From a virus, in IMG/VR virus record IMGVR_UViG_3300013006_001305, positions 1 to 24,803 of that record: 24,803 nucleotides of DNA. One strand, written 5' to 3'. Every line of letters starts with the position of its first letter. Position 1 is the stretch's first letter. The notes beneath the pieces are model-generated. The model was not told the origin of the DNA and did no database searches. It saw nothing but the letters and a program-made list of their open reading frames with translations. Positions 658-20,377 of the stretch are shown one piece after another. The translations under genes were made by a program, and so were the position numbers.

Positions 658-2426
658 TGCGTATTAGAGAGTTATTAGAGTCGGTTCAGGACCAAGCTAT
701 CCACTTGACCAAATTGGGTAAGTTTCATAGTGGTTCTGACCAGTTAGGTGAATGGGTTCCTGAAAGGTTAACTCATTCATTTGCACTGCATCCTAATAAA
801 TGGGAATCAACCTTTTTTAGTTTGACTAATAAAGATCCTAGAAAGATCAGTTACTATAAACCCAAAAATATAGATATTGTACCAGGTACTTTAGTAGGAG
901 ATATGGCTATTGCCAATCGTTTCTATCGTACTAAAGATCCAGTAGAAAGAGAACAGTACGCTAAAGCTTACAAGGATTCGTTAAAACCTTATCCAGTTGA
1001 TGTTAGTCAGTATCGCATGCCTGAGTTGTTAATTCCTAGAGAACAAAGTGTAACAGAAGAAGTAGACAATAAACCAACTATTGGTATCAATGTCAGAAGT
1101 GATGGCAATACTGACTACGCTAGTTTAATTGTTGACGGTAAAAAGAAATACGAATCTAGAAAAACCGACAGTCTTAGGCCATATGTTGGTAGAACTGTTG
1201 GTATTGTTAGAACTGGTAATGGCCCTGCAGTTGCAATTGGGCAAGTAACTATTGGGGAACCAATAGTAGTAGATGCTGAAAAGTTTGATAAACTTAGAAA
1301 ACAACATCTAGTTCCGCAAGGTAGTCTGTTTGATATCGGAGCCAACGATACCAAATACTTGTATCCAATGATTAATCCAATACGTTGGGATGAAGAGAAA
1401 TTAATAAAGAATAAAGGTATCGTTGCTAGAAAAATTCAAGAGCAAGAATTAACCGAGTTTGACTATAATAAACATGTCAACATGCTTAATGATTATATGA
1501 ATAAATTAGGCTATAGTTATATCGGTCATGGTACAGACGCACATGTTTTTGCTAAAGAAGAAGGTCCAGTAATCAAAGTATTAATACCTGAGAATGGAGA
1601 TATCTCTACTGCTAAAAATCCATTCTTAGCATTTCTTAATTATTGCGAGAAAAATGCTAATAACCCACACTTACCAAAGTTTATAGAAACTACTAAACAA
1701 CCAATTCAATTGGGAGTTGAAAAGTTTGATCAGGTAGTTATGGAACGATTAGAAGAATTAGATCCTGACTATGATGAAATGATTATAGATATGATGTATA
1801 GTATTGACGAAGGTAGACCATTAGATCCACAATATCGTCAATATGCTAATTTCTATAAAACACTTAAATCAGTTATAGCCACTGGTACTAAATTAGGATT
1901 TAGTAATGATATTATCGCTCATGATTATAGTAATGTAATGCAGAGAGGGGATACACTAGTAATTGCGGATCCTTGGGTTAGTGCAGGGTTAAAGGAAGAA
2001 TTATCTGAAGGACTAATAGACTTTGTACAACGAAAGCTTGGATTAAAGTGGGGTCAAGCAGGAGATGTTATAAAAGGTAGTGTAGTAGCAGAATACCTTG
2101 ATTCACAAGGTGACACTATAGACTCGGATAAGTATATCAATAGTAAGTTTAAATTGATGAACATCAGTGATGATGAGGCAGCCAAATACAGAGAAATATC
2201 TGATAGATCAGGATGGCCTAGCAATACACCATATGAGAAAATTAAAGATTGGGGCATAGACGATTACAAAATGAATCGTATTCGCAGGAATGATGTTACA
2301 TATCAAAGTTTAATGAAACACATTCCTGTAGTATCAAAGCGTGGATTTATAATTAATGGTAATCATCGTATCGCCCGCGCTATCGAACTTGGAATAGATC
2401 CTATTCCAGTTCTTAAAGAAATTTAA
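657..2426 (+). CDS. Multidomain protein: capsid-targeting-like N-terminus, ASCH-like, kinase-like and ParB-like domains
   Basis: A 589-residue protein that seems to be several small domains in a row. It begins MRIRELLES, like a T4 capsid-targeting peptide with an L-x-E end. Residues about 150-240 look like an ASCH/EVE-type domain (YASLIVDGKKKYESRKT, then VGIVRTGNG). Residues about 280-445 look like a minimal protein-kinase-like fold, with a glycine-rich loop IGHGTDAHVF, a lysine strand VIKVL, the catalytic-loop-like HDYSNVM and a metal-site-like DPW. Residues about 465-589 look like a ParB-type domain ending INGNHRIARAIELGIDPIPV. The stretches between domains contain LTE (265-267) and LSE-G (449-452), which fit a T4 prohead-protease site. 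The first ATG overlaps the upstream stop as TAATG. The 3' end overlaps the convergent epimerase gene by 4 bases. Domain calls are by eye; the overall function is unknown. Confidence 0.75.
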   Translation: MRIRELLESVQDQAIHLTKLGKFHSGSDQLGEWVPERLTHSFALHPNKWESTFFSLTNKDPRKISYYKPKNIDIVPGTLVGDMAIANRFYRTKDPVEREQYAKAYKDSLKPYPVDVSQYRMPELLIPREQSVTEEVDNKPTIGINVRSDGNTDYASLIVDGKKKYESRKTDSLRPYVGRTVGIVRTGNGPAVAIGQVTIGEPIVVDAEKFDKLRKQHLVPQGSLFDIGANDTKYLYPMINPIRWDEEKLIKNKGIVARKIQEQELTEFDYNKHVNMLNDYMNKLGYSYIGHGTDAHVFAKEEGPVIKVLIPENGDISTAKNPFLAFLNYCEKNANNPHLPKFIETTKQPIQLGVEKFDQVVMERLEELDPDYDEMIIDMMYSIDEGRPLDPQYRQYANFYKTLKSVIATGTKLGFSNDIIAHDYSNVMQRGDTLVIADPWVSAGLKEELSEGLIDFVQRKLGLKWGQAGDVIKGSVVAEYLDSQGDTIDSDKYINSKFKLMNISDDEAAKYREISDRSGWPSNTPYEKIKDWGIDDYKMNRIRRNDVTYQSLMKHIPVVSKRGFIINGNHRIARAIELGIDPIPVLKEI

Positions 2427-3241
2427 ATCTTTAGTAGTTGACCAATAGTAAATAAACTTTTCATATAGGGTGATACATTCTTTAACACAGAAACTTCTAT
2501 ATCACCTTTTCTACGTGGCCCAATCGTTACATCAATTTTACAGTTATTAATACTTTCAAATATAGTTACCATTTCTTTAACTGTATAACCTTTACCATGC
2601 CCTAAACACTCTAATTGATTAGAGGACTTTTCAATAGCGGTTTTAATAGAATTGCAAATCTCATTTACATGTACATAATCACGAACACAAGTACCATCGC
2701 CTGTATTATAATCACCACCGTATATAGTAAATTTGCCTGTTTCACTAGCCTTAATTAAATTGTAGAATAATCCATCTGGATTAGTAGGTTTAACTACTGT
2801 ACTACCAATTACATTGTAAAATCTAAAGATAGTATAATCCATACTACTCATTTCAGAATAAGACCTAACTACATCCTCTGCCGCACGTTTACTAACACCG
2901 TATGCACTTTCACATGATTCAGCAGCACCAGTGCTAGCGAAAATAAAGTTTTTAGTTTTTATTTTATTGATTACATTCATCGTACCATTTAAGTTAGTAA
3001 TGTAATATTGAATAGGTTGCTTTTCACTTTCTCCTACATTAACTAGAGCGGCTAAATGTATAACTGCATCAAATTCTTCGTCTAGTTGAAAATGACGGTT
3101 AATGTCACATTGATAAAATGCATGTGGTGCTACTTGTGGTTCAACACGATCAAGGCCATGTACTTCGTATTCATCTTTTAACATAGTAGTAAGATGACTA
3201 CCAATATATCCTGAGTTACCTGTTATTAATACTTTTTTCAT
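2423..3241 (-). CDS. NAD-dependent sugar epimerase/dehydratase (extended SDR, GalE-like)
   Basis: A 272-residue extended short-chain dehydrogenase. The Rossmann nucleotide loop TGNSGYIGSH is at residues 7-16, followed by DR as the NAD-ribose region. FASTGAAE near 101-108 supplies the catalytic Ser/Thr, and Y114-GVS-K118 is the Y-x-x-x-K motif. This layout is typical of UDP-glucose 4-epimerases and related nucleotide-sugar enzymes. It is shorter than the usual 310-340 residues, with the C-terminal substrate-binding region reduced, so the substrate cannot be read. The start overlaps the upstream glycosyltransferase stop as ATGA, so the two are probably co-translated. It most likely supplies a nucleotide sugar for the glycosyltransferases in this block. 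The stop overlaps the convergent 589-residue gene. Confidence 0.85.
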   Translation of the reverse strand: MKKVLITGNSGYIGSHLTTMLKDEYEVHGLDRVEPQVAPHAFYQCDINRHFQLDEEFDAVIHLAALVNVGESEKQPIQYYITNLNGTMNVINKIKTKNFIFASTGAAESCESAYGVSKRAAEDVVRSYSEMSSMDYTIFRFYNVIGSTVVKPTNPDGLFYNLIKASETGKFTIYGGDYNTGDGTCVRDYVHVNEICNSIKTAIEKSSNQLECLGHGKGYTVKEMVTIFESINNCKIDVTIGPRRKGDIEVSVLKNVSPYMKSLFTIGQLLKI

Positions 3242-4587
3242 AATCCTTCAAATAGGCTTAAGCCTGTTACTTCCTCTACTGGTCTGAAAGAGGGGTCTTT
3301 AGATAAGTATGTATCATTATCTGTGTAGATAATATTAATAAATTTTTTCTTATTAGACAACACACTTTCAAAATCTTCACGTGCCAAATGTGTGCGATTC
3401 AAATCAGTAATATAATCACGGTATTTAACAGTGTCATATGTATTGATTTTAGCGGCATTAGTATTGCTACGCTTACCTACAAAATCATCTAAAAATTGAA
3501 TCCAACCTTTAGCTACATCATTATCAAGGCTTTTTACATAATCTAATGCTGATGGTAGTTGATCACCACCATAAATTGTTTTAATCAATTCACTAGCATT
3601 CTTTATATCTACCTTATGATAATATTGACTGACAAAATTATCACTCCAGTCTTGTGTATCTAATACTACACATGGCATATGACCAAGACATTCTAAAAAT
3701 GCAAATGGATAATTCTCACGCAAACTTGGCATAAAGAATACGCTACTACTACGAATAAAATCTACTTTTTCTTTTCCAGTAATACCTGCCTTAATCACAT
3801 AATCATGAATGCCTGACTCACTAAATGCTTTTTCAAACTTCTTAGCACCATTGCTATTAGTCATCACTTTGCAAGGTAGTTTAGCTTCCTTCATTACCCG
3901 AATATATGCTTCAGGGTTTTTACCTTCTTCCCAACGACCAATAAATAGAACGCCTTTACGATCACCAGTGTATCTTTCTAATAATCCACGCTCGCTCATT
4001 GGCATAGGTAACAAACGACAGTTTGTTGCTCCGTACTTAGTTAGTTCATCAATATTCTTTTGGCTTTGTGTACCGATAATAATATCAGTAAACTCCATAT
4101 GTTTGTTATAGAAGTTATGATAACTGTCTAAGAATACATCACTACCTTGGCTTTCACGGAAAATCATACTATGCAAATGTGTATAGAATACAACAGGAAT
4201 ATATTGATTGACAGTCATAGCATAGGCCGCTGTCATTGCTTCCTGTGTATTGCATACCAACATATCATAAATGTTAGTTTCAAATCCCTGTAGTATACTT
4301 TTTCTAAAATTTACAATTTTTTCAAAATTGATAGTATCACTAAACGCAAATGTAGCGGTATGGTCTGAATACTTAAGAGGTTCTTTTGGTGAAATAATAT
4401 TTGCACCCAAACTTTCTATAAGTTTACTAAAATCATTTGTGGGTGCTTTGTCTAAAACAATGTCAACTTTCCAGTTGATACGCTGACACATTTCAGTAAA
4501 ACCTTTTGCAAACTGACCAATACCACCATGTGGAATAAAATGTTGGTCACTAATCAAAAAACCAATTCGTTTTTCATATAGTTTCAT
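3238..4587 (-). CDS. Glycosyltransferase, GT-B fold (GT4-like)
   Basis: About 449 residues. The N-terminal domain starts KRIGFLISDQHFIPHGGIGQF, with the Gly-rich acceptor loop (GGIGQ) of GT4-type enzymes. The C-terminal nucleotide-sugar domain has VLFIGRWEEGKNPE, then FFMPSLRENYPFAFLECLGH, matching the family's F-x-G-R and S-x-x-E-x-x-P-x-x-x-x-E-x-L-x-x-x motifs with its catalytic Glu pair region. No signal peptide or membrane segment is visible. I chose the ATG at 4587 because it overlaps the queE stop as TAATG; an ATG four codons upstream (4599) is possible but lies inside queE. The stop overlaps the epimerase start. Acceptor unknown: it could be DNA, a virion protein or a host surface glycan. 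Confidence 0.85.
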   Translation of the reverse strand: MKLYEKRIGFLISDQHFIPHGGIGQFAKGFTEMCQRINWKVDIVLDKAPTNDFSKLIESLGANIISPKEPLKYSDHTATFAFSDTINFEKIVNFRKSILQGFETNIYDMLVCNTQEAMTAAYAMTVNQYIPVVFYTHLHSMIFRESQGSDVFLDSYHNFYNKHMEFTDIIIGTQSQKNIDELTKYGATNCRLLPMPMSERGLLERYTGDRKGVLFIGRWEEGKNPEAYIRVMKEAKLPCKVMTNSNGAKKFEKAFSESGIHDYVIKAGITGKEKVDFIRSSSVFFMPSLRENYPFAFLECLGHMPCVVLDTQDWSDNFVSQYYHKVDIKNASELIKTIYGGDQLPSALDYVKSLDNDVAKGWIQFLDDFVGKRSNTNAAKINTYDTVKYRDYITDLNRTHLAREDFESVLSNKKKFINIIYTDNDTYLSKDPSFRPVEEVTGLSLFEGL

Positions 4588-5438
4588 TATGTACCCCATT
4601 CGTTTTTGAATAAAGGTACCTGGAGTCTATCGCTGTATCGTAATCCATGTTTCATTGCTAACATGGCTACATTTTTATTATTCATAGAGTATACACTTTC
4701 CACACCACCTACTGGCATTAGATAAACATGGCCTTTAAAACCTGCGGCACGATATGCGGCAATAGCGCATTCAGCATCAGCAAAGTCTTGTTCTGTGGCT
4801 ATCACAAATTTTAGATAGGATGTGCCATATTGTTCGTATTCACAGACTATTTCGGGTTTGATAGCATCATCCCACGCTTCTCCGCTACAAGGCAGTTTAG
4901 CACTAACACTAAATGTGATTTCTCTATTGTACCATTTGCTCCATTCTTTCAGTGCTAATTTAAATTCTGGAGTTAGTTTTTGAGTACCATTTGTTTCAAA
5001 AGTAATTTCTTTTAAATCATGCATTTTAAGATGATTTAACAAATCAGGATATTGTCGTTGCCAACCCAGTAGAGGTTCGCCACCTGTAATAACCAAATGT
5101 TCATCACGCCATTGGCCATATGGGAGAATTTCCATGATCCTATCTACAATGGCATTTGTACTAAGTACAGGACTTAGTTCTTTAAACGCAGGATCCCAAC
5201 TGGCATAACTATCGCAACCCGTACTGACAAGAGGCAGTTCTTTATAGTCTTTGTAAGGAGTATTTCCATGAGCAAATGCTACTTGAATTCTTCCTACACT
5301 TTTTTCTCCACGCGGCATGCCAAATCCATCGCAGGTGAAATTACAGCCAAATGTACGAAGAAAAATACTTGGCACACCGGTGTATTTTCCTTCTCCTTGA
5401 ATACTATAAAAAAGTTCGCTTACTTTAATCTTACTCAT
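4587..5438 (-). CDS. queE: 7-carboxy-7-deazaguanine synthase (radical SAM), unusual cluster loop
   Basis: A 283-residue radical SAM enzyme that converts 6-carboxytetrahydropterin to 7-carboxy-7-deazaguanine (CDG). The N-terminus FYSIQGEGKYTGVPSIFLR matches the QueE substrate and SAM region, and VITGGEPLL at 116-124 is the radical SAM glycine motif. The [4Fe-4S] cysteines appear to be C32 and C36 (GCNFTC) and C75 (TGCDSYASW, like the W-C-D-T-x-Y-x-W of QueE). The spacing is thus CX3CX38C, with about 36 extra residues between the second and third cysteines instead of two. ETNGT at about 150 is also typical. It overlaps the upstream 62-residue gene by 8 bases and couples to the glycosyltransferase downstream. 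It acts after FolE and QueD, both encoded in the same block. Confidence 0.9.
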   Translation of the reverse strand: MSKIKVSELFYSIQGEGKYTGVPSIFLRTFGCNFTCDGFGMPRGEKSVGRIQVAFAHGNTPYKDYKELPLVSTGCDSYASWDPAFKELSPVLSTNAIVDRIMEILPYGQWRDEHLVITGGEPLLGWQRQYPDLLNHLKMHDLKEITFETNGTQKLTPEFKLALKEWSKWYNREITFSVSAKLPCSGEAWDDAIKPEIVCEYEQYGTSYLKFVIATEQDFADAECAIAAYRAAGFKGHVYLMPVGGVESVYSMNNKNVAMLAMKHGLRYSDRLQVPLFKNEWGT

Positions 5439-5637: not shown

Positions 5638-5820
5638 TCACCAATGTCGTATAATCCCTGCTATGATAAACATATTTGTAATGATATATGTTAACACAAT
5701 ACAAGTTCTAACCAAAGCTATTAGGTCACTTTCCTGATCTGTAGCACCAGACTTTTCTCCCAATGCCTTGCTCCATAACCGCCAAAGCCTAACCCTCGTA
5801 GATTGCTGAATTGGCTCCAT
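5638..5820 (-). CDS. Small single-pass membrane protein
   Basis: A 60-residue protein starting MEPIQQSTRVRLWRLW. The basic N-terminal half is followed by a hydrophobic helix (about residues 36-57, rich in I, V, L, F), ending RHW. This predicts one membrane span near the C-terminus. I prefer the ATG at 5820, which has GAGG nine bases upstream, over a TTG two codons earlier. The start lies 32 bases inside the end of the queD gene in another frame, a longer overlap than elsewhere in this block. Function unknown; small membrane proteins of this sort are common in T4-like phages. Confidence 0.55.
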   Translation of the reverse strand: MEPIQQSTRVRLWRLWSKALGEKSGATDQESDLIALVRTCIVLTYIITNMFIIAGIIRHW

Positions 5821-6313
5821 GCTCAAAAACCTCGGCGCTTTTAATTCTTACATTAGGATTAATGGGATATCGCATATTACCGCTAGCTAATAATTCAGCC
5901 ATCTTGTCAAAACATAATTTAGCAAACATTTCACAACCCACGCCTTCTACAATACGTAAGTCACAAATTGCACCGCGCTCATGCGGTTTAACTTCAGAAT
6001 GATTAGCCATCCCTGATTGTGGTGGATGACCCATCCAACTCATTTTACGGAAGAACTCTAAATAAGGATCATCTTTTGCAATGACCAATGTATGATCAAA
6101 CATATAATCGGCCCAAGTCTTGAATTCTTTTAGGCCACCAAAGTCCATACCCCAGTTTTTGTCATCCAATGTTTCACATTCAAATATCAATTTGATACCA
6201 ATGCTGTATCCATGTAGGGTACTACAATGACTATGTGTAGCGCGCCATTGTCTAAAACAGCAACTCAATCCTCTGTCATTGCCATATGTTTTAGTTGAAT
6301 AAAACTTTGCCAT
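5789..6313 (-). CDS. queD: 6-carboxytetrahydropterin synthase-like protein
   Basis: A 174-residue T-fold enzyme of the 6-pyruvoyltetrahydropterin synthase/QueD family. It should convert 7,8-dihydroneopterin triphosphate, made by FolE, to 6-carboxytetrahydropterin for QueE. Visible signatures are H27, then C30-STL-H34-G-Y36, corresponding to the family's C-x-x-x-H-G-H; GMDFGGLK at 55-62, like the G-M-x-x-D-F-x-x-L-K block; FDHTLVI at 73-79 with the catalytic Asp-His; and the C-terminal E161 region. The last zinc-binding His of HGH is Tyr here, which is unusual. It is longer than E. coli QueD (about 120 residues) because of an insertion around 85-115. I chose the ATG at 6313, one base past the upstream stop; a TTG at 6322 would lie in the preceding gene. 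Confidence 0.85.
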   Translation of the reverse strand: MAKFYSTKTYGNDRGLSCCFRQWRATHSHCSTLHGYSIGIKLIFECETLDDKNWGMDFGGLKEFKTWADYMFDHTLVIAKDDPYLEFFRKMSWMGHPPQSGMANHSEVKPHERGAICDLRIVEGVGCEMFAKLCFDKMAELLASGNMRYPINPNVRIKSAEVFEHGANSAIYEG

Positions 6314-6314
6314 A

Positions 6315-6518
6315 TTAATCAACTAAATTGGTTACTAGAGTTTTGATTTCGGCATCGGTTAAGAAGAATTGATAGGTTGAGGTATCTACAACCTCACCTT
6401 TATCATTTTTACTTTCTTGGATAAACTCAATATGAGTCAAACTTTGTGGTTTCAAACACCTATTTTTTTTAACTCTAACTGTGTATTGATGCATATCTTT
6501 AAGAACAAATTCTTTCAT
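6315..6518 (-). CDS. Small hypothetical protein
   Basis: A 67-residue protein with alternating charged and hydrophobic positions that suggest a small beta-rich fold (YTVRVKKNRCLKPQSLTHIE) and a C-terminal helix (TDAEIKTLVTNLVD). The ribosome-binding sequence AAGG lies just before the ATG. It sits 4 bases after the preceding gene and one base before the chosen queD start, so it is co-transcribed with queD. Not recognised; no motif suggests a function. Confidence 0.55.
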   Translation of the reverse strand: MKEFVLKDMHQYTVRVKKNRCLKPQSLTHIEFIQESKNDKGEVVDTSTYQFFLTDAEIKTLVTNLVD

Positions 6519-6761: not shown

Positions 6762-6887
6762 TTATACCTTACAGGTACAGTTGCGTCCTTGATTGCAATT
6801 TCCATTGCAATTATTATTGCTTGTGGTTTTAAATATTGAAAAGTATATTATAGCAACAATTATAGGTAATGTCAATATCGTCAACAT
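6762..6887 (-). CDS. 41-residue membrane protein with Cys-rich tail
   Basis: A very short ORF starting MLTILTLPIIVAIIYFSIF, a single hydrophobic span, followed by a polar tail NNNCNGNCNQGRNCTCKV. The C-x-G-x-C-x-Q-G-R-x-C-x-C arrangement recalls tiny phage membrane proteins I have seen in other tailed phages, though I know of no function. The ATG overlaps the folE stop as TAATG and the stop is 2 bases from the next gene, matching the coupling used all along this block. A consensus sigma70 promoter lies inside the same bases, so the coding call rests on the tail motif and the exact junctions. Confidence 0.5.
   Translation of the reverse strand: MLTILTLPIIVAIIYFSIFKTTSNNNCNGNCNQGRNCTCKV
6847..6875 (-). 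promoter_or_regulatory. Exact-consensus sigma70 promoter inside the small Cys-rich ORF
   Basis: On the minus strand TTGACA (6875-6870) is followed by a 17-base spacer and TATAAT (6852-6847), a perfect match to both bacterial hexamers at the preferred spacing. Transcription would begin near 6840 and read the small genes, queD, queE, the second glycosyltransferase and the epimerase. It lies wholly within the coding region of the 41-residue ORF. Confidence 0.7.
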
Positions 6888-7561
6888 TATCGCATCCTTG
6901 CAATCTGATAAAATTCATTGCGTACTTCGGGATCAGATTTAAACCCACCACCAAGTCTAGTAGTAACGGTACTACTACCAGTATCTTCTACACCTCGGCT
7001 TTTGACACAGTAATGTTGAGCATCAATCATAACCGCAACATCATTTGTTTCAAGGATAAACTGTAGTGCATAGAAAATCTGTTCAGTCAATCGTTCTTGA
7101 ATTTGTGGACGTTTGCTAAAGTATTCTACAATACGGTTGATTTTACTGAGACCCAATACTTTTCTTTTTGGTACGTATGCTACAGTCGCTAATCCATCTA
7201 TAACTACAAAATGGTGTTCACAGTTACTTTGAACGTTGATATTACGTTCAACCACCATTTCATTATAGTGCATTTTATTGTCTACTGTAGTACATTTTGG
7301 GAATGCTTCAAAATCAAGTCCCCAAAAAATTTCATTTACATACATTTTAGCAACACGATTAGGTGTTTCTATTAGACTATCATCGGTTAAGTCTAAGCCG
7401 AGAATTCCCATAATCTCACGAAAATGATTCTCAATTTTATCAATTTTTTCTTTTCGGTCAATACCGTTTGAAATAACAGGAGTTTCAACTCCCATTCGTT
7501 CTAGATATTCGTGTACTAGTAATCCTAGTTCAGGATCTGTTTTGGTCTTATTATACGACAT
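6887..7561 (-). CDS. folE: GTP cyclohydrolase I
   Basis: A 224-residue enzyme, close to E. coli FolE (about 222). It converts GTP to 7,8-dihydroneopterin triphosphate, the first step of both folate and 7-deazaguanine synthesis. Zinc ligands are seen as C114-E-H-H117 (QSNCEHHFVVIDG) and C185 (AQHYCVKSRG). The core GLSKINRIVEYFSKRPQIQE and the C-terminal RLGGGFKSD are family hallmarks. The start is ATG 7561, because GGAGGG lies 7 bases upstream; a GTG at 7606 would give 15 more residues but has no such site and sits within an inverted repeat. Followed by the 41-residue ORF with a TAATG overlap. With QueD and QueE in the same block, its product is probably used for 7-deazaguanine. Confidence 0.95.
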   Translation of the reverse strand: MSYNKTKTDPELGLLVHEYLERMGVETPVISNGIDRKEKIDKIENHFREIMGILGLDLTDDSLIETPNRVAKMYVNEIFWGLDFEAFPKCTTVDNKMHYNEMVVERNINVQSNCEHHFVVIDGLATVAYVPKRKVLGLSKINRIVEYFSKRPQIQERLTEQIFYALQFILETNDVAVMIDAQHYCVKSRGVEDTGSSTVTTRLGGGFKSDPEVRNEFYQIARMR

Positions 7562-7568
7562 TTGATAA

Positions 7569-7574
7569 CCCTCC
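7569..7574 (-). promoter_or_regulatory. Strong ribosome-binding site that fixes the folE start
   Basis: GGAGGG on the minus strand, 7 bases before the ATG at 7561. It shows that translation starts there and not at the in-frame GTG at 7606. Confidence 0.8.
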
Positions 7575-7600
7575 GTTGTGATGGTTTTGTTTTGACATTT

Positions 7601-7618
7601 TGTCACCTTTTTGTGACA
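7601..7618. repeat. Inverted repeat upstream of folE
   Basis: TGTCAC and GTGACA, each six bases, are separated by six bases. The repeat lies between the glycosyltransferase stop and the folE start. It could be an operator, or a short RNA hairpin in the folE leader. No promoter hexamers with good spacing are visible next to it. Confidence 0.4.
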
Positions 7619-7628
7619 TTAATATTTA

Positions 7629-8804
7629 TCAATATTTACTTTCTCTAAGATATTTTCTATAGTCAGTAGACATTCTAAGCATACTATCACCTTTGCCTTC
7701 TAAAATGTCACAAATTCGGTCAATAGTACCATCATTATACTTACTAATCTTACCAATATTACTGTGAGGTTTAGTCAACAATTTCTCTAGTTTAGCTAGG
7801 GCATCTTCTATTGACCAAGGTATATAAAGTCTTGTATGGTCATTAGAAAAAGTTTCAGGGAAAGACCGATAAGCAGGGAATAAAACATTACACCCAAGAG
7901 CATCTGCTTCACTGACTGTGTTGGAAACCCAATCTTGAAGGGCGCAATTAAAGACAACCCTACTATCATTAAGAATATTATAATAAGCATTTTTTTCTAA
8001 GTTTTCATAAACCGTTAGCCAACCTTTTTCTTCAAACTTGCGAGTCCTACTCATGTAAGATTGATTGTTTGATTTAAGACTACCGCCGCTACATATAACA
8101 AATTCAGTATTGTGATTTGGATGTGAGGCATAATATGCTTCAATCAAATCCATATACAAATCAGGTTGTTTTTCTTGATCCCATCGTGAACTGAATACCA
8201 CACGCATTCTACGATCTTTGAAATTTTTAATTTTCTCAACACGGCTTTGTACTTCATCAAGACCAAATGCAAGCCCACTGATATTGTAGATTGATGCCTT
8301 CCAACCTGCTACCTTCATGTGCATGACCATTTCTTCATTAGTAGCAAGCAAACCATCTACGAACGAATCAACCATTTTTTCATAATGGCCCATCCACTCT
8401 GACATGCCCCAGACATGAACAAAATCATCTGGATCAATAGACTGAGCAAGACAGCGAACAAAAATACGAGGCTGATGCTCACTACCGATTTGATTGAGGA
8501 TATAAGGTAAGCTCTCGATTCCTGGTTGAAACATGTCCTCAAAGTAGATAACATCTTCATTAGTGCATTCTCCTGCCTTCATCATACGAACTAGATTCAT
8601 TAGTTGCGACATACCAAAATATGTGCGACCATGTGCATCTAGTACCTGACCAGTAACAATAGCTTGATCAGTAGTTAGTGTTTCACCCGGTACAATTACA
8701 TAATCGATTCCTCGACGTTTGAATACAGATTCATTCCAATCTTGTAACTGTAAAGTGTATCGGGCTTTGTAGGGCTCTAGGCCCATATAAAATAGTTTAC
8801 GCAT
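7629..8804 (-). CDS. Glycosyltransferase, GT-B fold
   Basis: A 391-residue protein with a Rossmann-like N-terminal half and a clear GT-B C-terminal half: VVFSSRWDQEKQPDLYMDLI at about 200, then FVICSGG, LTVYENLEKNAYYNIL and FNCALQDWVSNTVSEADALG. The last segment holds the acidic E-A nucleotide-sugar region of GT4-type transferases. No membrane segment is seen. The ATG overlaps the stop of the nucleotidyltransferase-cupin gene as TAATG. It is distinct in sequence from the other glycosyltransferase at 3238-4587. The acceptor cannot be read; DNA, virion protein or surface polysaccharide are all possible. Confidence 0.75.
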   Translation of the reverse strand: MRKLFYMGLEPYKARYTLQLQDWNESVFKRRGIDYVIVPGETLTTDQAIVTGQVLDAHGRTYFGMSQLMNLVRMMKAGECTNEDVIYFEDMFQPGIESLPYILNQIGSEHQPRIFVRCLAQSIDPDDFVHVWGMSEWMGHYEKMVDSFVDGLLATNEEMVMHMKVAGWKASIYNISGLAFGLDEVQSRVEKIKNFKDRRMRVVFSSRWDQEKQPDLYMDLIEAYYASHPNHNTEFVICSGGSLKSNNQSYMSRTRKFEEKGWLTVYENLEKNAYYNILNDSRVVFNCALQDWVSNTVSEADALGCNVLFPAYRSFPETFSNDHTRLYIPWSIEDALAKLEKLLTKPHSNIGKISKYNDGTIDRICDILEGKGDSMLRMSTDYRKYLRESKY

Positions 8805-9553
8805 TATTTTCTCTCGGTATCTTCTTCAACGCATTGTGTTCCATATTGGACTTCAAGAATATGACAATATTCATCGTAGTTATTTTGACCTTGATGCCAA
8901 ACATTAGGGGATATAATATAAGTTTCGTTTTCTTTTTTAGATACTAGTAGTATATCATTATTATGAATTGTTGCAATATCACATTTACCCTTTAATATAT
9001 ACCAATGTTCATTGCGCTTTGTATGGCGTTGCATTGATAATTGTTTCTTAGGTTCAATGACTAGTTCTTTGACCTTATAAGTAATTTTATCATCCAAAAC
9101 TCTATACCATCCCCAAGGACGTTTTGTTTTGGGAGATTTCCATTCTTCTAATAGCCAACTACTACTATTCTTTTTATCTTCTCCGCCTACACCAAATACA
9201 AATTCTATATCGGAAAATACCATTTCAGGAATGTTGTCTTTAGTACGATCACCACCATTAGCAAAGATAATTTTATCTGTAGGATACATTTCTTTAACTT
9301 TACGTATGGCATCAATCGCGGTTCCATCAGTATCATCAAAATTAATAACATTGTGAACCATATGTAGATTATCTAGTATAGTCATGCGTTCGTGCCATGG
9401 CATAAATGCTTGACCCTTTTTGCGTTCAAGCCAAGCATCGCTGTTAAGACCTACAATTAATTGGTCACCTAGATGCTCGGCATGATTCAAATAACTAATA
9501 TGTCCACTGTGTACTGGATCAAATCCTCCAGTAACTAGAACTATAGTTTGCAT
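8804..9553 (-). CDS. Nucleotidyltransferase-cupin fusion (HldE/RfaE2-like plus mannose-6-phosphate isomerase type II-like)
   Basis: A 249-residue, two-domain protein. Residues 1-135 are a cytidylyltransferase-family domain with VTGGFDPVHSGHISYL (the H-x-G-H nucleotide-binding motif) and a GGDRTKDNIPE segment resembling heptose-phosphate adenylyltransferases. Residues about 143-245 are a cupin: KRPWGWYRVLD, KVKELVIEPKKQLSMQRH, then EHWYILKG, WHQGQN and ILEVQYG. That series follows the C-terminal cupin of type II phosphomannose isomerase/GDP-mannose pyrophosphorylase proteins. The likely role is activation and processing of a sugar phosphate for the adjacent glycosyltransferases; the sugar is unknown. 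It is joined by TAATG overlaps to genes on both sides. The fold calls are firm; the substrate is not. Confidence 0.8.
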   Translation of the reverse strand: MQTIVLVTGGFDPVHSGHISYLNHAEHLGDQLIVGLNSDAWLERKKGQAFMPWHERMTILDNLHMVHNVINFDDTDGTAIDAIRKVKEMYPTDKIIFANGGDRTKDNIPEMVFSDIEFVFGVGGEDKKNSSSWLLEEWKSPKTKRPWGWYRVLDDKITYKVKELVIEPKKQLSMQRHTKRNEHWYILKGKCDIATIHNNDILLVSKKENETYIISPNVWHQGQNNYDEYCHILEVQYGTQCVEEDTERK

Positions 9554-9762
9554 TAGGCTGCTTTCATATCAGCATCCCACATATTCTTTATAGGTTTGCC
9601 CTGCAAGAGTTTGGTATATTGTCTAAATACATAGCTTTTAGTGCTATAGAGTTCGGCTTCGTTAAAACGATAGCCATATTCCACACAAAAATCCCGATAT
9701 TTTTCGAGGTCGTCGAAAATTGCATGAACACGGGCGTTAGGTTGAAAGTTATATTTTGCCAT
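9553..9762 (-). CDS. Small hypothetical protein
   Basis: A 69-residue protein starting MAKYNFQPNARVHAIFDDLEK, then YRDFCVEYGYRFNEAELY. It is rich in aromatic and charged residues and looks helical and soluble. An AAAGGA ribosome-binding sequence precedes the ATG, and the stop overlaps the nucleotidyltransferase-cupin start as TAATG. No function recognised. Confidence 0.6.
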   Translation of the reverse strand: MAKYNFQPNARVHAIFDDLEKYRDFCVEYGYRFNEAELYSTKSYVFRQYTKLLQGKPIKNMWDADMKAA

Positions 9763-9773
9763 TATATTTTCCT

Positions 9774-10223
9774 TTAAATAGCAAGTTGTTGATAAGGTTT
9801 GGTTGTGTTGTAGTAAATTGTGGCGCCGTTCTCACCATCTTCTGATACAGTGATATGAATGTCACGGTCGGGATAGCGATTAGCAATAGACTGATAAAGG
9901 TCATCACTAATCATTTCACAACTTTTGAAATTTAGTTCAAGTGTGCCGCGATAGAGATTCTCCAACCATCGCTTAAACTGAATAAATTCAATATCCCTGT
10001 CGTTATGAAATACTTGAATCGCCACATTAAAATGAAAAATGTGACGATGCGGAGTTCCTAAAAAGCTTACGTCATATTCATCTCCTGTTGCCAAATTAGC
10101 ATCAATAGATGCTGCTGGATAGCAATGAATACCTTCTTTTTGAAACGTAACCCAAATCATGCGTTTGGCTTGATCTTTAATACGGTTACGCTTTTCTTGT
10201 TTAGCGAGTACTGCTTGTTCCAT
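9774..10223 (-). CDS. T-fold protein, QueD/PTPS-like paralogue
   Basis: A 149-residue protein whose layout follows the QueD/6-pyruvoyltetrahydropterin synthase fold without being a standard member. KEGIHCYPAA near 29-38 sits where QueD has its first zinc His. PHRHIFHFNVAIQVFH at 58-73 corresponds to the H-G-H strand, giving H59, H61 and H64 as possible metal ligands. KSCEMISDDL at 101-110 and the strand ITVSEDGENGATIYY match the E-containing C-terminal half of QueD. It lies between the dpdA-like gene and folE. It may act on a 7-deazaguanine intermediate. I cannot tell whether it equals the CDG decarboxylase reported as DpdL. The stop of the preceding gene overlaps its ATG as TAATG. Confidence 0.55.
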   Translation of the reverse strand: MEQAVLAKQEKRNRIKDQAKRMIWVTFQKEGIHCYPAASIDANLATGDEYDVSFLGTPHRHIFHFNVAIQVFHNDRDIEFIQFKRWLENLYRGTLELNFKSCEMISDDLYQSIANRYPDRDIHITVSEDGENGATIYYNTTKPYQQLAI

Positions 10224-10435
10224 TATCTATCATCCTCAAAGTTAACTCGGTCATGTTCTTCTTCCCATTGAAGTTTCTGCAATTTTCTAATTTCAAGTTG
10301 GGTTTTTGACCTTTTACTGATCAAGTCTTGAAGTTTTACTTGGTCTTTATTTTCATTTTTCATTAATGAAAAAACCTCGTTGTCTAGATTTTTGTAAGTT
10401 TCTTGTAAATTTCTAATTTGAGATTTATATGGCAT
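10223..10435 (-). CDS. Small coiled-coil protein
   Basis: A 70-residue protein that is almost entirely a charged heptad-like helix (ETYKNLDNEVFSLMKNEN, then LISKRSKTQLEIRKLQKLQ), so a coiled coil is likely. It lies between the zinc-ribbon gene and the T-fold gene and overlaps the latter as TAATG. No enzymatic motif is present. Function unknown. Confidence 0.6.
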   Translation of the reverse strand: MPYKSQIRNLQETYKNLDNEVFSLMKNENKDQVKLQDLISKRSKTQLEIRKLQKLQWEEEHDRVNFEDDR

Positions 10436-10450
10436 GTTGATTCCCGATTA

Positions 10451-10657
10451 TTAATCCTCTATATTATAGTCAGTAGTTGCACTGGGCACACCGTCAAATT
10501 CCAGCCATTTAGATGCCGGGCATCGAATACGTGCTATTGTAACTTTAAAGGGCATAAGACACCCGCATTTTTTACAGACTTTAACAATATTGTTGAATTC
10601 ATCACAACTTTTACAAATTGCGTAACGTTCACTAGCAGTAACGAGTGGTACAAACAT
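10451..10657 (-). CDS. Small zinc-ribbon protein
   Basis: A 68-residue protein with RYAICKSCDEFNNIVKVCKKC followed by GCLMPFKVTIARIRCPASKW. The C-x-x-C pairs and a further Cys before a KW are the pattern of a small phage zinc-ribbon family (I associate it with DUF6171-type proteins). The ribosome-binding sequence AAAGGAAAGG precedes the ATG and the gene follows dpdA by 13 bases. It may bind nucleic acid or act as an adaptor, but nothing in the sequence proves this. Confidence 0.7.
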   Translation of the reverse strand: MFVPLVTASERYAICKSCDEFNNIVKVCKKCGCLMPFKVTIARIRCPASKWLEFDGVPSATTDYNIED

Positions 10658-10670
10658 AACGACCTTTCCT

Positions 10671-12209
10671 TTAATCTGTAACTAGCACTGTATGCTCGTT
10701 TTCATCTTCATATGTATTGAGTTCTTCTGTAGCAAACAATTGATCAAACATTGTCATAGCATTTACTGTTTTCTTACCACTAAATCCTTGACTACCGCTT
10801 TGCATCTGCATCCAAAATCTGCTATAATGATCAATCAAGTCTAGACTCTTTTGACGGTCTTTGAGAGAGAAAATTTCATCTACAATTTCACTAAAACGAA
10901 TACGCTCAAAAGTTTCATTCATAATCATTTTTGGAATAATACCTTGTTCATATCTACGGTTAGCCTCTTGCACAGCATAGATATGTTGATATACATTGTG
11001 AGATTGAAGTAGAGTATAACTTAATGTATCCCAACTAGTTTTTGTTTCTTTACCATGCTGACCAATGAATCCTTGACCCCTGTAGCATAAGTCCTTCATA
11101 AGCATTCTATCAGTTACGGGACTATCTGTAAATAGTTTATGGATACCGTCTTGTAGTACACCGTCACTAAATTTGCGAGTATCTGTAGCATAAGATTTTT
11201 TCTCTGCGGTTTTTTCCATGCTATAGGACCATTTTTTATTATGCTCAATACTGGTATTGAAATATGCTAGTCCTTTAGCTGCACTGAAAAATGGACTAGC
11301 ACAGTCAAAAGTAATCTGAAGTTTTGAGTTATGATACTTCCTAACCGCTCGTTGAATATCGGTAAAAAGTACCGCATATTCTAAAATAGAAGTACCCAAA
11401 CAATGAATCAAATCATGCTTACCTTCTTGTAGAAGACCATCATGGATGATACCCACGATACGTTTGAGAGTAAGATGAATATCAATTTTATTTTGTCCCC
11501 CAAATGCCCAACCATTGAAATGATTTTCAGGATAGATATTTGGGTCACAATATTTTTTCATCTCTTCATACCACTGGTCACTTTGAGTATGAGTAAGACC
11601 CTGTAGAACATTTAAGAACTTGCAGTTACCATTACGGTTCTCAATAAAATATTCGTTATTGATATGTGTAGCATCGATAGCCTCTTGAATAGTACTGATG
11701 CCATGTAAAGACTTACCTGTCTTTGGATCCTTTAAGTGAAATGTGCGTAGAGATTGCGAAGGAATATCAAGACACATACCATAGTCCATGTATGTGTCCA
11801 TCCATGTGAGAACTGCTTTACGCTTAATCATTGCCTTGGGACAGTTAGGATCTTTCCAATCTGCGGGCCATTGACCTTTTAGAATTTGAAAACCACCGCT
11901 ATCTCCTAGCATAAATGTACCACTTTCACGATCACGGATAATACTTTCGTTGAAGTCAACTTTAGTAGTATCTAAGTTAGCATGACCCGCACTATACAAT
12001 CCCCATTTGTAATAGTACATTCCTTCTTTACTATTAAGAAAATTAAGTTTTTCTACATCACCACCAAACCCTGGTGGGATTCTTGCAGCTTCAAAATACT
12101 CTTCACCATTGCGCTGTTTACCCAAGCCAGCAATGTAAAAACTACTGACTGCTGGCAAGAATAGTGCCCAATCGGGATTGTGTGCGGATGATAGATTTAT
12201 TTGTTCCAT
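10671..12209 (-). CDS. dpdA: DpdA-like DNA guanine transglycosylase (TGT superfamily)
   Basis: A 512-residue member of the tRNA-guanine transglycosylase superfamily. FMLGDSGGFQI contains the D-S-G-G-F-Q base-recognition motif at 103-108. CKFLNVLQG at 196-204 matches the V-Q-G segment. FNGWAFGGQN at 231-240 matches G-x-A-x-G-G. ITFDCASPFF at 299-308 holds the catalytic Asp of F-D-C-x-x-P. The C-x-C-x-x-C zinc site of bacterial Tgt is not evident. It is much longer than Tgt (about 375 residues). These features, in a phage block with folE, queD and queE, point to DpdA, which exchanges guanine in DNA for a 7-deazaguanine. A tRNA substrate cannot be excluded. The ATG overlaps the previous stop as TAATG. 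Confidence 0.8.
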   Translation of the reverse strand: MEQINLSSAHNPDWALFLPAVSSFYIAGLGKQRNGEEYFEAARIPPGFGGDVEKLNFLNSKEGMYYYKWGLYSAGHANLDTTKVDFNESIIRDRESGTFMLGDSGGFQILKGQWPADWKDPNCPKAMIKRKAVLTWMDTYMDYGMCLDIPSQSLRTFHLKDPKTGKSLHGISTIQEAIDATHINNEYFIENRNGNCKFLNVLQGLTHTQSDQWYEEMKKYCDPNIYPENHFNGWAFGGQNKIDIHLTLKRIVGIIHDGLLQEGKHDLIHCLGTSILEYAVLFTDIQRAVRKYHNSKLQITFDCASPFFSAAKGLAYFNTSIEHNKKWSYSMEKTAEKKSYATDTRKFSDGVLQDGIHKLFTDSPVTDRMLMKDLCYRGQGFIGQHGKETKTSWDTLSYTLLQSHNVYQHIYAVQEANRRYEQGIIPKMIMNETFERIRFSEIVDEIFSLKDRQKSLDLIDHYSRFWMQMQSGSQGFSGKKTVNAMTMFDQLFATEELNTYEDENEHTVLVTD

Positions 12210-16421: not shown

Positions 16422-16949
16422 ATGATATTTGAAGAAAAAACAGTTCCAACTACTGCAACCATTTTTACCGCAGATTTTTCGGAATATAAACCTTTATTAG
16501 AATTATCCAAAGAAGCTATTTTTGAAGAAAAAATAAAAGATAATGGTGAATCTCTAAATTCTAATGTAAGAGCTAGTTACGTAACATCTTACTTTGCTCA
16601 TGAGCATAACGAAAAATTTACTCCATTAATTGATTTGGTTACAAAAACAGCCAATGATATAATCAATGAAAAAGATAAGGCTAATATACAATTTCGCTGT
16701 TTGAATGCATGGGGAATGGAATATTTATCAGGAGATTATGCATTACCTCATAGGCATTTTCAATGGGCACCTAGCTACTCAGCGATATGTTATATTGATG
16801 TTGATGATGATTGTGCTCCTATTATATTTGAAAATCACACGCTTATCAAGCCTAAATCAAATATGTTTATTTTATTCCCCGCATCAGTGTTGCATCATGT
16901 GCCTAAAACTAAAGGCAACAGAATTTTAATGTCATATAACTTGATTTAA
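16422..16949 (+). CDS. 2-oxoglutarate/Fe(II)-dependent oxygenase
   Basis: A 175-residue protein alone on the plus strand between two minus-strand blocks. Residues 108-136 (ALPHRHFQWAPSYSAICYID, then a central CAPIIFEN) and FPASVLHHVPKTKGNRILMS form a double-stranded beta-helix pattern as in the phage '2OG-FeII_Oxy_5' type. H110 or H112 would be the first metal ligand, H158 or H159 the distal His, and R167 the 2-oxoglutarate-binding Arg. The substrate is unknown; in phages such enzymes are candidates for hydroxylating a virion protein, a base or a sugar. The stop overlaps the tilS-like stop on the other strand by 4 bases. No ribosome-binding site is clear before its ATG. Confidence 0.75.
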   Translation: MIFEEKTVPTTATIFTADFSEYKPLLELSKEAIFEEKIKDNGESLNSNVRASYVTSYFAHEHNEKFTPLIDLVTKTANDIINEKDKANIQFRCLNAWGMEYLSGDYALPHRHFQWAPSYSAICYIDVDDDCAPIIFENHTLIKPKSNMFILFPASVLHHVPKTKGNRILMSYNLI

Positions 16950-17536
16950 TCCTGCTTTTCAACTAAACGTTTTACTACTGTATGTAGTCCAGGATTTACT
17001 TTAAGAGCATTGGGCATCATTAAATGTCTAATATAATTTCGTGTATATTGAACATCATCATTGCTTAAATCTTCACACCAATTAATATTCTTACGTTTGC
17101 ACCAATTAATAAACTCACTCTTTCTAGTAGAAAGAAACGGCCTTAGTACATTATTTCTTGTTTTTGGGATGACTTTGGGAGTACCATGCATACAAGACCA
17201 AAGATAAGTTTCGGTGCAATCATCAAGGTGGTGCCCAGTTATTACAGGACCCAGTGGTTCAAAAAACTTATATCGTTCGTTTCGCCAAAACTCTTCCTGA
17301 CTTAATTCTTTTGGTTTCTTTTCATGAAGCATACCAACTAGTAGTGGAAGATCACGTTCGGTACAAAATTTGGCAACGAACTCAAATGCCCGTTGAGAAT
17401 TTTCTGTTCCATGATGATAAAACGCACAAGTGACCTCATGATTTTTTGTAAGAAAATCAGTAATAGCAACACTATCTACACCACCACTTAGTGCAATAGT
17501 AAGTTGTTTTGGTAATGGGAAAAGTAATTTAAGCAT
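16946..17536 (-). CDS. tilS: tRNA(Ile)-lysidine synthase-like PP-loop ATPase, short form
   Basis: A 196-residue N-type ATP pyrophosphatase. TIALSGGVDSVA at 13-24 is the PP-loop. GHHLDDCTETYL is the TilS H-H-x-D-D-x-x-E-T motif. RPFLSTRKSEF, NWCEDLSNDD and YTRNYIRHLMMP follow the TilS order R-P-L, E-D-x-S-N and R-N-x-I-R. E. coli TilS is 432 residues; this protein has the catalytic domain only. TilS changes the CAU anticodon of tRNA-Ile2 to read AUA. AUA codons are frequent in this AT-rich DNA, so the enzyme could support translation of phage genes. No matching tRNA gene is in the window. The ATG sits at the predicted transcription start, with no leader. Confidence 0.8.
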   Translation of the reverse strand: MLKLLFPLPKQLTIALSGGVDSVAITDFLTKNHEVTCAFYHHGTENSQRAFEFVAKFCTERDLPLLVGMLHEKKPKELSQEEFWRNERYKFFEPLGPVITGHHLDDCTETYLWSCMHGTPKVIPKTRNNVLRPFLSTRKSEFINWCKRKNINWCEDLSNDDVQYTRNYIRHLMMPNALKVNPGLHTVVKRLVEKQD

Positions 17537-18553: not shown

Positions 18554-20377
18554 TTATGTGTATTTAATATTTATTTCGGTTGAAATATTCTGTCTTTCTA
18601 TTATATTATTATGTAATACAACTGCATCCATTTTTGAATACATAAACGAATTAATGGCATCACTTGGGGTTTCAACAATTGGTTCTTTGGGAATAGTATT
18701 AAAAGAAGTATTAAGAAGAATGGGAACACCGGTTAACTCATAAAATTTCCTCAGTAAAAGATAAAGCTTTTCATTTTGTTCTCGGTTAACTACTTGTATT
18801 CTACAGGAATTATCTACATGAGTTACAGCAGGAATTAATCCTAATTTATTTGATTTAACTTTAGCACTAAAAAGCATGTAGTAAGAATCTTTTTTTGGTG
18901 TCGTAAACCAATCATCTACATATTCTTCTAGTACTACAGCCGCATATGGCCTCCACTCTTCTCTTTTCTTAACTTTAGTGTTTAAATGTTGTTTATTATC
19001 ATAGCATGGATTTGCAAGTATGGATCTATTCCCCAAAGCTCTAGGCCCAAATTCACTTTTACCTTGATACCATCCTATTATATTATTGTTTTTTAACTTT
19101 ATTCCAGTGTAATTTATTATTTCTTCAAAATTTAAAGTCTTAACAGAAAAGTTTTTATTAAAATTCTTTAAATTTTGTTTATCTAAAATAGCATTCTTTA
19201 TGTCATTGTCCGAATATTCTAAACCAATACATCCAATATTAGTTGGCAATATTATTTCTTTTTCTAATTGCCACGCTTTTAGTAATGCTGCGCCTTGATG
19301 CAAACCGTCATCATTTGGTGCAGGGGGAATGTGAATGTCCTCAAAAAGTCCTTCTTCAATTAATTTTGAATTAAGTAGTATGTTTAATGCACATCCGCCA
19401 CCTAAACAAAGTTTTTTCTTTTTGATTTGTTTAGGTAATTTTGAAAAATATTCTAACATTATTTTTTCAAAACAATATTGCGTCCATGCTGCTATGTCTT
19501 CTCCTGAAAATTTACATTCTTGATTTTGTATTTCAAGATCTGGTGATACATAAGGTGCTATTTCATGTAAATGCGAATAATTAAACTCATTGTTAGGAAT
19601 TATGGTAGGTATCTCGTATTCATTTGTTTTTGAAGAATATACCATCATAGGAGAAGGTAAATCAATTACTTTACCATAGGCTGATAATCCCATTACTTTC
19701 CCGGGCATTGATTCTATTTCCCATGAATTATTTGTAATGCCTGTCCAATTTAATTTATTTTTTTGTGCAAGACTAAATCCAGAATAATTTACATAAAATC
19801 CCCCAACCCCACCTCCATAAAAAGGCGCGTTACCAGAATACACATATGTAGTATATAAATTATTAAATTGTTTATTTTTATAATTACCAATATTTAAGCT
19901 AGACCAATTTTCGATATGTACACCGTACAGAATTCTTGCTGTTCCTGTCGTATCGAAAGAGTATACATTAACATCTTCATCTTTAAAAGATGAAGTTAAC
20001 AATGTTCCCATTGAATGGGATATATGGTGATCTACAATACATATCTCTGCATTAATAAAAATATCTTTGAAAAAAATTTCAGAAGAAATATAATTATGGT
20101 GCCGAGTTGTATTTAAATTGGGAGATTCGTGGCTATAATCAGGCATAACCACAATATCTATGTCTTTAGGGGTAAAATTAAATTTAGATAATATATCTAC
20201 CGCTATAGATTTAGAAAAATTACCATCGTATTTAATTCTAGTAAATCTTTCGTTTGAAATTGAAAAAACTAATTTTCCATCTGCTATTAACGTGAGTCCG
20301 GCGCCATGAACCCATTTATTATGTCCTCCTACATTAGCGTTCCAATACCATCCACCTGATACACCTAATATATTCAT
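18554..20377 (-). CDS. Carbamoyltransferase (NodU/CmcH/TobZ family)
   Basis: A 607-residue enzyme of the O-carbamoyltransferase family, which makes carbamoyl-adenylate from carbamoyl phosphate and ATP and passes it to a hydroxyl. The N-terminal Kae1-like domain has MNILGVSGGWYWNANVGGHN, SNERFTRIKYDG, IVDHHISHSMG (metal-binding His at 117-121), CLGGGCALN at 324-332 and NDDGLHQGAA at 355-364. The C-terminal domain has SEFGPRALGNRSILANP, EEWRPYAAVVL and GVPILLNTSFN. Length and motif order are complete. The substrate could be a sugar or a hydroxymethylated base; phage homologues have been discussed in DNA modification. A GAGG ribosome-binding site precedes the ATG. A 26-bp palindrome separates it from the amidoligase gene. 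Confidence 0.93.
   Translation of the reverse strand: MNILGVSGGWYWNANVGGHNKWVHGAGLTLIADGKLVFSISNERFTRIKYDGNFSKSIAVDILSKFNFTPKDIDIVVMPDYSHESPNLNTTRHHNYISSEIFFKDIFINAEICIVDHHISHSMGTLLTSSFKDEDVNVYSFDTTGTARILYGVHIENWSSLNIGNYKNKQFNNLYTTYVYSGNAPFYGGGVGGFYVNYSGFSLAQKNKLNWTGITNNSWEIESMPGKVMGLSAYGKVIDLPSPMMVYSSKTNEYEIPTIIPNNEFNYSHLHEIAPYVSPDLEIQNQECKFSGEDIAAWTQYCFEKIMLEYFSKLPKQIKKKKLCLGGGCALNILLNSKLIEEGLFEDIHIPPAPNDDGLHQGAALLKAWQLEKEIILPTNIGCIGLEYSDNDIKNAILDKQNLKNFNKNFSVKTLNFEEIINYTGIKLKNNNIIGWYQGKSEFGPRALGNRSILANPCYDNKQHLNTKVKKREEWRPYAAVVLEEYVDDWFTTPKKDSYYMLFSAKVKSNKLGLIPAVTHVDNSCRIQVVNREQNEKLYLLLRKFYELTGVPILLNTSFNTIPKEPIVETPSDAINSFMYSKMDAVVLHNNIIERQNISTEINIKYT

Follow-up and report, generated by a model that had tools for sequence, protein, structure and literature searches.

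The window, that is the whole stretch of 24,803 bases analysed here, is an IMG/VR virus record. Its minus strand carries a tight series of genes encoding, in this order, a DpdA-like protein, two small ORFs, a T-fold protein, a 69-aa ORF, a nucleotidyltransferase-cupin, a glycosyltransferase, FolE, a QueD-like protein and QueE. Several gene ends in this series touch or overlap, which suggests that the series is co-transcribed. The locus comprises the following features:

2423-3241, minus strand: epimerase-like gene (look at the sequence and clustering only)
3238-4599, minus strand: second GT4-like glycosyltransferase (PF13692, 3.6e-6, just over the cut-off)
4587..5438, minus strand: QueE-like radical SAM protein, presumed maker of 7-carboxy-7-deazaguanine (CDG) (phrog_2076, QueE-like, 1.5e-51; TIGR03365, 3.7e-16, under the cut-off)
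5789..6322, minus strand: QueD-like protein of H-G-Y type (PF01242, 2.2e-13, over the cut-off; alignment A6)
6887..7606, minus strand: FolE, GTP cyclohydrolase I (PF01227, 4.5e-61; NF006824, over the cut-off)
7629..8804, minus strand: GT-B, GT4-like glycosyltransferase, 391 aa (Pfam Glycos_transf_1, 1.8e-5, under the cut-off)
8804..9553, minus strand: nucleotidyltransferase (RfaE domain II type) with C-terminal cupin (PF01467, 1.9e-13; PF01050, 3.3e-20)
9553..9762, minus strand: 69-aa ORF separating the nucleotidyltransferase gene from the T-fold gene (98/283 unique T-fold loci have a relative)
9774..10223, minus strand: T-fold gene, ATG start, 149 aa (PHROG phrog_17812, function unknown, E 5e-34)
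10223..10435, minus strand: 70-aa ORF directly upstream of the T-fold gene and overlapping its start (relatives in 64/283 unique T-fold loci)
10671..12209, minus strand: DpdA-like (transglycosylase-like) gene, class A, 512 aa (tblastn and HMM merging)

The nucleotidyltransferase-cupin (8804..9553) likely serves nucleotide-sugar supply, and the epimerase-like and second GT4-like genes (2423..4599) might be tied to base modification. A 68-aa ORF between the DpdA-like and T-fold genes (10451-10657; phrog_13558, 6e-13) has two CxxC pairs and looks zinc-ribbon-like. Elsewhere in the window, a 607-aa ORF (18554-20377) resembles a NodU/CmcH-type carbamoyltransferase by the look of its sequence only.

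The T-fold ORF, described with its 149 residues in an earlier reading of the sequence alone (hereafter the sequence-only reading), is a genuine conserved protein-coding gene. Compared with seven relatives at 75-84% amino acid identity its dN is 0.13-0.21, and its dS is 1.0-1.3 for the five of the seven where it was computable, which indicates purifying selection. Searches of Pfam, NCBIfam and PDB with the single sequence gave no match, neither to PF01242 nor to TIGR03367, so that only fold and profile comparison were informative. Relatives are present in at least 580 of 600 candidate stretches of one metagenome scan, among the matches listed, and in 27 phage records found by tblastn. Thirteen of these 27 were analysed, the omitted ones belonging to Pseudomonas, Acidovorax and Cellulophaga groups already represented; two of the thirteen, phi13:1 and phiST, are near copies. 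The protein is annotated as hypothetical in all 13 named phage records fetched. Five scans yielded 321 further T-fold loci, some of which share contigs. The 337 T-fold ORFs, one being left out for an X, fall into 118 clusters at 80% identity, each with one representative.

An AlphaFold2 monomer model built from 104 sequences (window and fetched loci) reached pLDDT 93.8 and pTM 0.83. Its elements, strands 21-33 and 59-71, helices 80-89 and 102-116 and strands 122-128 and 132-138, follow the order strand-strand-helix-helix-strand-strand, that is two antiparallel strand pairs round two helices, as in a T-fold. At E <=0.001 Foldseek gave 21 rows, every one a structure of QueD or PTPS, with E. coli QueD on top (E 1.6e-5). 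A second structure comparison gave Z 12.2 and 2.1 A over 95 residues with Pyrococcus horikoshii PTPS, and Z 11.7 and 2.5 A over 110 residues with E. coli QueD. Profile comparison agrees: the family profile matches the QueD alignment at 87.5% (E 3.6e-6, 107 columns), and with FolE hhalign gave 1.4% only, no likeness. Hence the QueD-like strand order claimed from the sequence is borne out by the predicted model and its structural neighbours, and the unrelated fold that would have spoken against it was not found. QueF and QueF-like preQ0 enzymes have the superfamily fold in common with the model (Foldseek E 0.008, Z 9.4-9.5); a QueF profile match to the T-fold protein was absent (Pfam, E up to 1).

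Conservation in the family is concentrated on a small set of residues. H33, L55, H59, H61, R76 and E79 each occur in 117 of the 118 representatives, with one gap each; S101, E103 and E128 are found in all 118, C102 and D129 in 117. The stretch HRHIFHF covers residues 59-65 of the window protein (minus-strand codons from the sequence: H59 10049-10047, H61 10043-10041, C102 9920-9918). Its HRH corresponds to HGH of QueD and with H33 completes the His3 zinc set. In an alignment with the PTPS PH0634, H33, H59 and H61 fall on its histidines, E103 and E128 on conserved glutamates. In PH0634 the residues concerned bind zinc and the pterin ring, and in PTPS and QueD it is the glutamate aligned with E128 that holds the 2-amino-4-oxo ring. 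H33, H59 and H61 would be zinc ligands, and the roles of the other single residues are likewise predicted.

With QueD and PTPS (PF01242) the protein has in common the T-fold, the His3 zinc set and the two conserved glutamates. It differs from them in having Leu55 for the catalytic Cys, no Asp-His pair, an invariant S-C-E and no match in Pfam or NCBIfam. In QueD the catalytic Cys lies four residues before H59; the loss of Cys-x-x-x-His noted from the sequence is therefore confirmed for the family, with Leu55 in 117/118 and a gap in the other. The Asp-His pair (D76-H77 in QueD alignment A6) is missing from the window protein, as had also been noted; in certain relatives (ACP17, L098) S-C-E is preceded by D-H-x, and the pair is not conserved family-wide. 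S-C-E itself is invariant or nearly so in the family and new relative to QueD. The sequence-only reading was right about the fold and the lost catalytic residues, and overlooked that HRH is the HGH of QueD, together with the His3 set, the anchoring glutamate and S-C-E. The T-fold protein is a widespread QueD relative whose active site has been rebuilt. The parts that hold metal and base are kept, the pterin chemistry is gone and Cys-Glu is fixed, which argues for a new reaction on a similar ring; the protein is probably an enzyme with such a reaction and not a dead QueD.

The genomic company of the family was studied in loci gathered by T-fold searches, many of their contigs being fragments. 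In 77 of the 118 clusters a locus is flanked by 6 kb or more on either side (representative loci); 41 were left out for short flanks. DpdA-like, glycosyltransferase and other labels are our own HMM and clustering assignments (three rounds at E 1e-5), and no T-fold ORF was counted among the DpdA, FolE, QueD or QueE families. DpdA-like genes, which fall into three classes, are present in 74/77 representative loci and FolE, QueD or QueE in 74/77, and none of the 77 lacks all four. Broad presence in phages without deazaguanine genes, named beforehand as an argument against a deazaguanine role, is hence not observed. By DpdA class the loci divide into 41 of class A (the window type), 16 of class B and 17 of class C (like the CAjan DpdA). 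The three loci with no DpdA match are L002, L327 and L109; in phage Phosso (L002) a match lies in another part of the genome.

The window gene at 10671-12209 gave no match in Pfam and PHROG searches. A tblastn search with it hit proteins that carry the annotation 'TGT domain-containing' (E 8e-5 and 6e-4), and its HMM merges with the family of the phage X1 'queuine tRNA-ribosyltransferase'. The class A profile matches the CAjan-type DpdA of class C weakly (17% probability, E 0.0014; aligned stretches DSG, H-x-LG and D-x-x-S), whereas the class B and C profiles match each other at 92.8% (E 4e-7). Against solved structures, a sequence search found none for the class A profile and one TatD for that of class C (E 0.11). 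We treat 10671-12209 as a possible DpdA, weakly supported by profile. The placing of the T-fold gene near dpdA and folE holds with this reservation for the former, FolE being at 6887..7606.

Proximity to DpdA-like genes of three classes would fit a carrier without catalytic activity, from which DpdA receives the base, one of the two roles first suggested for the protein. Such a delivery role is less likely in view of the complete, nearly invariant zinc and acidic set, and the three accompanying DpdA classes are dissimilar. Moreover, in two archaeal loci (L108, L109; Methanosarcinales / Methanoperedenaceae) the T-fold gene is clustered with QueD, QueE and FolE, and a DpdA match is absent within the locus, to which the search was confined. 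We consider a carrier very improbable. The neighbours in L108 and L109 include, by look, methyltransferase-, prenyltransferase- and ABC-transporter-like genes, and the cluster might serve to make a small molecule derived from 7-deazaguanine.

Another conceivable role concerns the QueD-like protein of the window. It had been called a true QueD; 5789-6322 does belong to the PTPS family (50.6 bits, cut-off 22.4), but falls far under the NCBIfam QueD cut-off (32.5 vs 89.25) and has H-G-Y in place of H-G-H. It also lacks the first zinc His. As H-G-Y QueD hits predominate in class A (65/72) and class B (31/36), the T-fold protein could be a partner subunit that restores zinc to such a QueD. This is hard to reconcile with class C, where H-G-Y occurs in 1/24 (all three counts from loci not thinned) and 23/24 loci have an H-G-H QueD and yet a T-fold protein. 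It also fails at both ends in single phages: the control phage Ps15 has an H-G-Y QueD without a T-fold protein, and Faecalibacterium phage Roos has the T-fold protein without a QueD match. A partner role thus appears highly improbable.

The relation to QueC was examined in phage records. Among the 13 named T-fold phage records, FolE is present in 12, QueE in 12 and a PTPS match in 11 (Roos lacks all three, D479 the PTPS match), and full-length QueC in none by Pfam profile. D479 has a partial QueC match over the cut-off (positions 133-201); the matching protein has, by look, a P-loop without full SGGxDS and resembles a second protein of KVP40, a phage which also has a full-length QueC. The QueC match of X1 is under the cut-off, to a PP-loop protein that looks NadE-like. 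Nine deazaguanine phages served as controls, four picked as known ones (CAjan, 9g, CP220, Dp-1) and five drawn from the QueE hits. A T-fold match was absent from each of them (0/9), and each gave a QueC-family match above the cut-off (9/9), full length or nearly so in eight and partial in Ps15. In nine large IMG/VR T-fold records the Pfam profile found full-length QueC in none; short matches (at most about 100/210 positions) occur in seven, two of them over the cut-off. The absence of QueC rests on these Pfam-profile searches, since the model used for locus counts was built from one sequence (CAjan) and retrieved no phages but CAjan and Dp-1. Full-length QueC and the T-fold protein are mutually exclusive among the records tested, and co-occurrence with dpdA but not queC, put forward as a check by the sequence-only reading, is what the 74/77 loci and 0/13 phages display. 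A TilS-like PP-loop gene of the window (16946-17536; ATP_bind_3, 1.2e-31) was rejected as a QueC stand-in, its relatives occurring in only 4/77 representative loci.

The best single hint that the T-fold protein takes the step of QueC, the use of CDG, is a swap. In two Bacillales phages, Bacillus phage BSP7 and Weizmannia phage Youna2, annotated QueC, QueD, QueE and FolE genes lie within a few kb of a gene distantly related to the class B DpdA (22-26% identity). A T-fold match was absent from both, in a search with no positive control within it whose query matched 5/5 positives in another search. Since hosts may supply QueC, preQ0 could be made even where the phage itself lacks the gene. According to an excerpt of PMC6884629, phage Bipper lacks QueC only and might carry the QueC substrate.

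A minority of loci points to another supply of the base. Roos (L013) combines the T-fold gene with a DpdA-like gene and a transporter of YhhQ type (Vut_1), and matches to FolE, QueD, QueE and QueC are absent from its whole record. L139, L205, L246 and L248 have T-fold, DpdA and YhhQ genes and none of FolE, QueD and QueE on the stretch analysed, L246 and L248 looking like one case. With no de novo genes in view, the T-fold protein of these loci would act on an imported or host-made base, and its substrate there is perhaps other than CDG. In general terms, the protein could act on preQ0, preQ1 or queuine salvaged via YhhQ, the phages with QueE using the QueC of the host to arrive at the same base. 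The presence of FolE and QueE in 12/13 named phages, none with full-length QueC, is awkward for a preQ0 substrate, and we regard salvage as an improbable explanation of the family.

Beside what the computations establish directly, namely the gene, its fold, its invariant residues, its DpdA/FolE/QueD/QueE company and the lack of full-length QueC, we propose that the T-fold protein is a zinc enzyme of the QueD/PTPS line which acts on CDG at the step where other deazaguanine phages have QueC, decarboxylation being its most likely reaction. We give this reading a probability of about one half. Taken separately, CDG is the probable substrate. Decarboxylation would be the simplest use of the site and agrees with the prediction reported for DpdL (see below); here the odds are about even. 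In such a pathway, the phage FolE, QueD and QueE would make CDG, and E128 of the T-fold protein would hold the base. Zinc on H33, H59 and H61 would hold or polarise the 7-carboxylate, the acid that protonates C7 would come from the new site (C102, E103, E79 or D129), and CO2 would leave. The product, 7-deazaguanine, would then be put into DNA by the neighbouring DpdA-like enzyme. A change to CDG, the other role first suggested, is accordingly the better supported of the two, the reaction itself being a prediction. If the protein does act on CDG, a missing step of the pathway is filled and the base of those phage genomes is predicted.

A CDG decarboxylase, DpdL, was reportedly predicted by Cui et al. 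2023. DpdL would be expected at the same place as the T-fold protein, after QueE, without QueC and before DpdA. QueC (PF06508) would have its step in common with the T-fold protein, the use of CDG, but is unrelated in fold; it performs an ATP-dependent amidation, as an excerpt of PMC13329287 has it.

One partner of the T-fold gene is not accounted for by this pathway. A GT4-like glycosyltransferase match lies near it in 40/41 class A, 14/17 class C and 0/16 class B representative loci, at a median distance of about 1 kb over all representative loci; the label may include other GT4 genes, given the HMM and clustering assignments behind it. In loci thinned by unique T-fold sequence, the counts are 137/138 (A), 16/20 (C) and 0/22 (B) where 3 kb are available on both sides, and by plain clustering within 6 kb 188/203, 18/26 and 0/38. 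The model of the window enzyme (7629-8804; pLDDT 84.1) matches GT-B, GT4-type folds at Z 21.6-26.0, and the family has conserved residues. Two tetrahydrobiopterin glucosyltransferases are among the structure matches (Z 23.2), which shows nothing by itself, and by sequence the profile found one solved structure (E 0.093). The window glycosyltransferase matched four phage-collection records, all with a T-fold protein (4/4), and that of PA5oct matched 19, of which 15 have one. The glycosyltransferase is present in Pseudomonas phages PA5oct and Paride and in Acidovorax phage ACP17, and no match to it occurs in the T-fold locus of Cellulophaga phage phiST. The link is not absolute: four Xanthomonas/Erwinia records with a distant relative of the glycosyltransferase (23.8%) are outside the list of T-fold records. 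For one of them, PhiXhv-12, the search described for BSP7 and Youna2 gave no T-fold match, and its glycosyltransferase adjoins sugar genes. Sugar gene clusters in large phages are known for surface polysaccharides, according to an excerpt of PMC7824862.

Among the 203 unique class A loci, an epimerase is present in 63 and an RfaE-type gene in 59, both being rare in class B and absent from the 26 class C loci. Plain 7-deazaguanine, having no hydroxyl to glycosylate, does not account for the GT4-like enzyme that accompanies the T-fold protein in classes A and C, which counts against our best explanation. The base made with the T-fold protein may in these two classes be further glycosylated. Tentatively, the T-fold protein could alter CDG (e.g. 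by decarboxylation), the class A or C DpdA insert the base and the glycosyltransferase add a sugar, possibly by a C-C bond at C7, class B remaining unglycosylated; we hold this for possible rather than probable.

Alternatively, CDG could be changed otherwise, for instance by reduction or condensation of its 7-carboxyl, to give a group for the GT4-like enzyme to glycosylate. The frequent glycosyltransferase of GT4 fold in classes A and C and the nucleotide-sugar-type genes in part of class A both speak for this, as do a zinc-alcohol-dehydrogenase-like gene near the T-fold gene in 13 loci (e.g. L314:6516-7403) and a viral database match of the T-fold inside a 459-aa protein named alcohol dehydrogenase. 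However, class B has the same invariant site and no glycosyltransferase, so that the step must make sense without glycosylation, and class C does without the epimerase and RfaE-type genes. Furthermore, the reduction of a carboxylate normally requires activation, and no nucleotide cofactor site is apparent. This course of the reaction is in our view rather unlikely.

The joint company of T-fold protein and glycosyltransferase points to a kind of DNA base with a sugar on deazaguanine. To our knowledge, no source describes a sugar-bearing deazaguanine DNA base. Neither the T-fold protein nor a glycosylated deazaguanine was found in titles and abstract openings of the literature, mostly non-subscription, which is weak evidence of absence.

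Class B has a GT-A-like gene of its own (L283:9992-10945; 28/38 class B unique loci), which is not taken for a specific partner: 61 phage records contain a match, and among the 60 listed only Rhizobium phage RHph_I1_18 is one of the T-fold records. The family c11, of about 170 aa and without a Pfam match (e.g. L206:7193-7711), accompanies the T-fold gene in 107 class A unique loci; that it is a Cys-less copy of QueE was rejected (hhalign 0.6%). Two T-fold proteins (L114:8001-8951, L247:8001-8759) have an additional C-terminal part. By eye this part resembles c11, as in a fusion of c11 to the T-fold, but the c11 profile matches neither protein. The T-fold model also matches parts of the longer viral BFVD proteins A0A6J5LEZ6 and A0A8S5V119, named alcohol dehydrogenase and AAA domain protein. 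Finally, in five loci from Magnetospirillum and a Rhodospirillaceae MAG (L102-L106), the glycosyltransferase, T-fold, DpdA-like and QueD genes lie within about 3 kb in 5/5 cases; these are on bacterial contigs, one of 1.4 Mb, in a prophage or chromosomal island.
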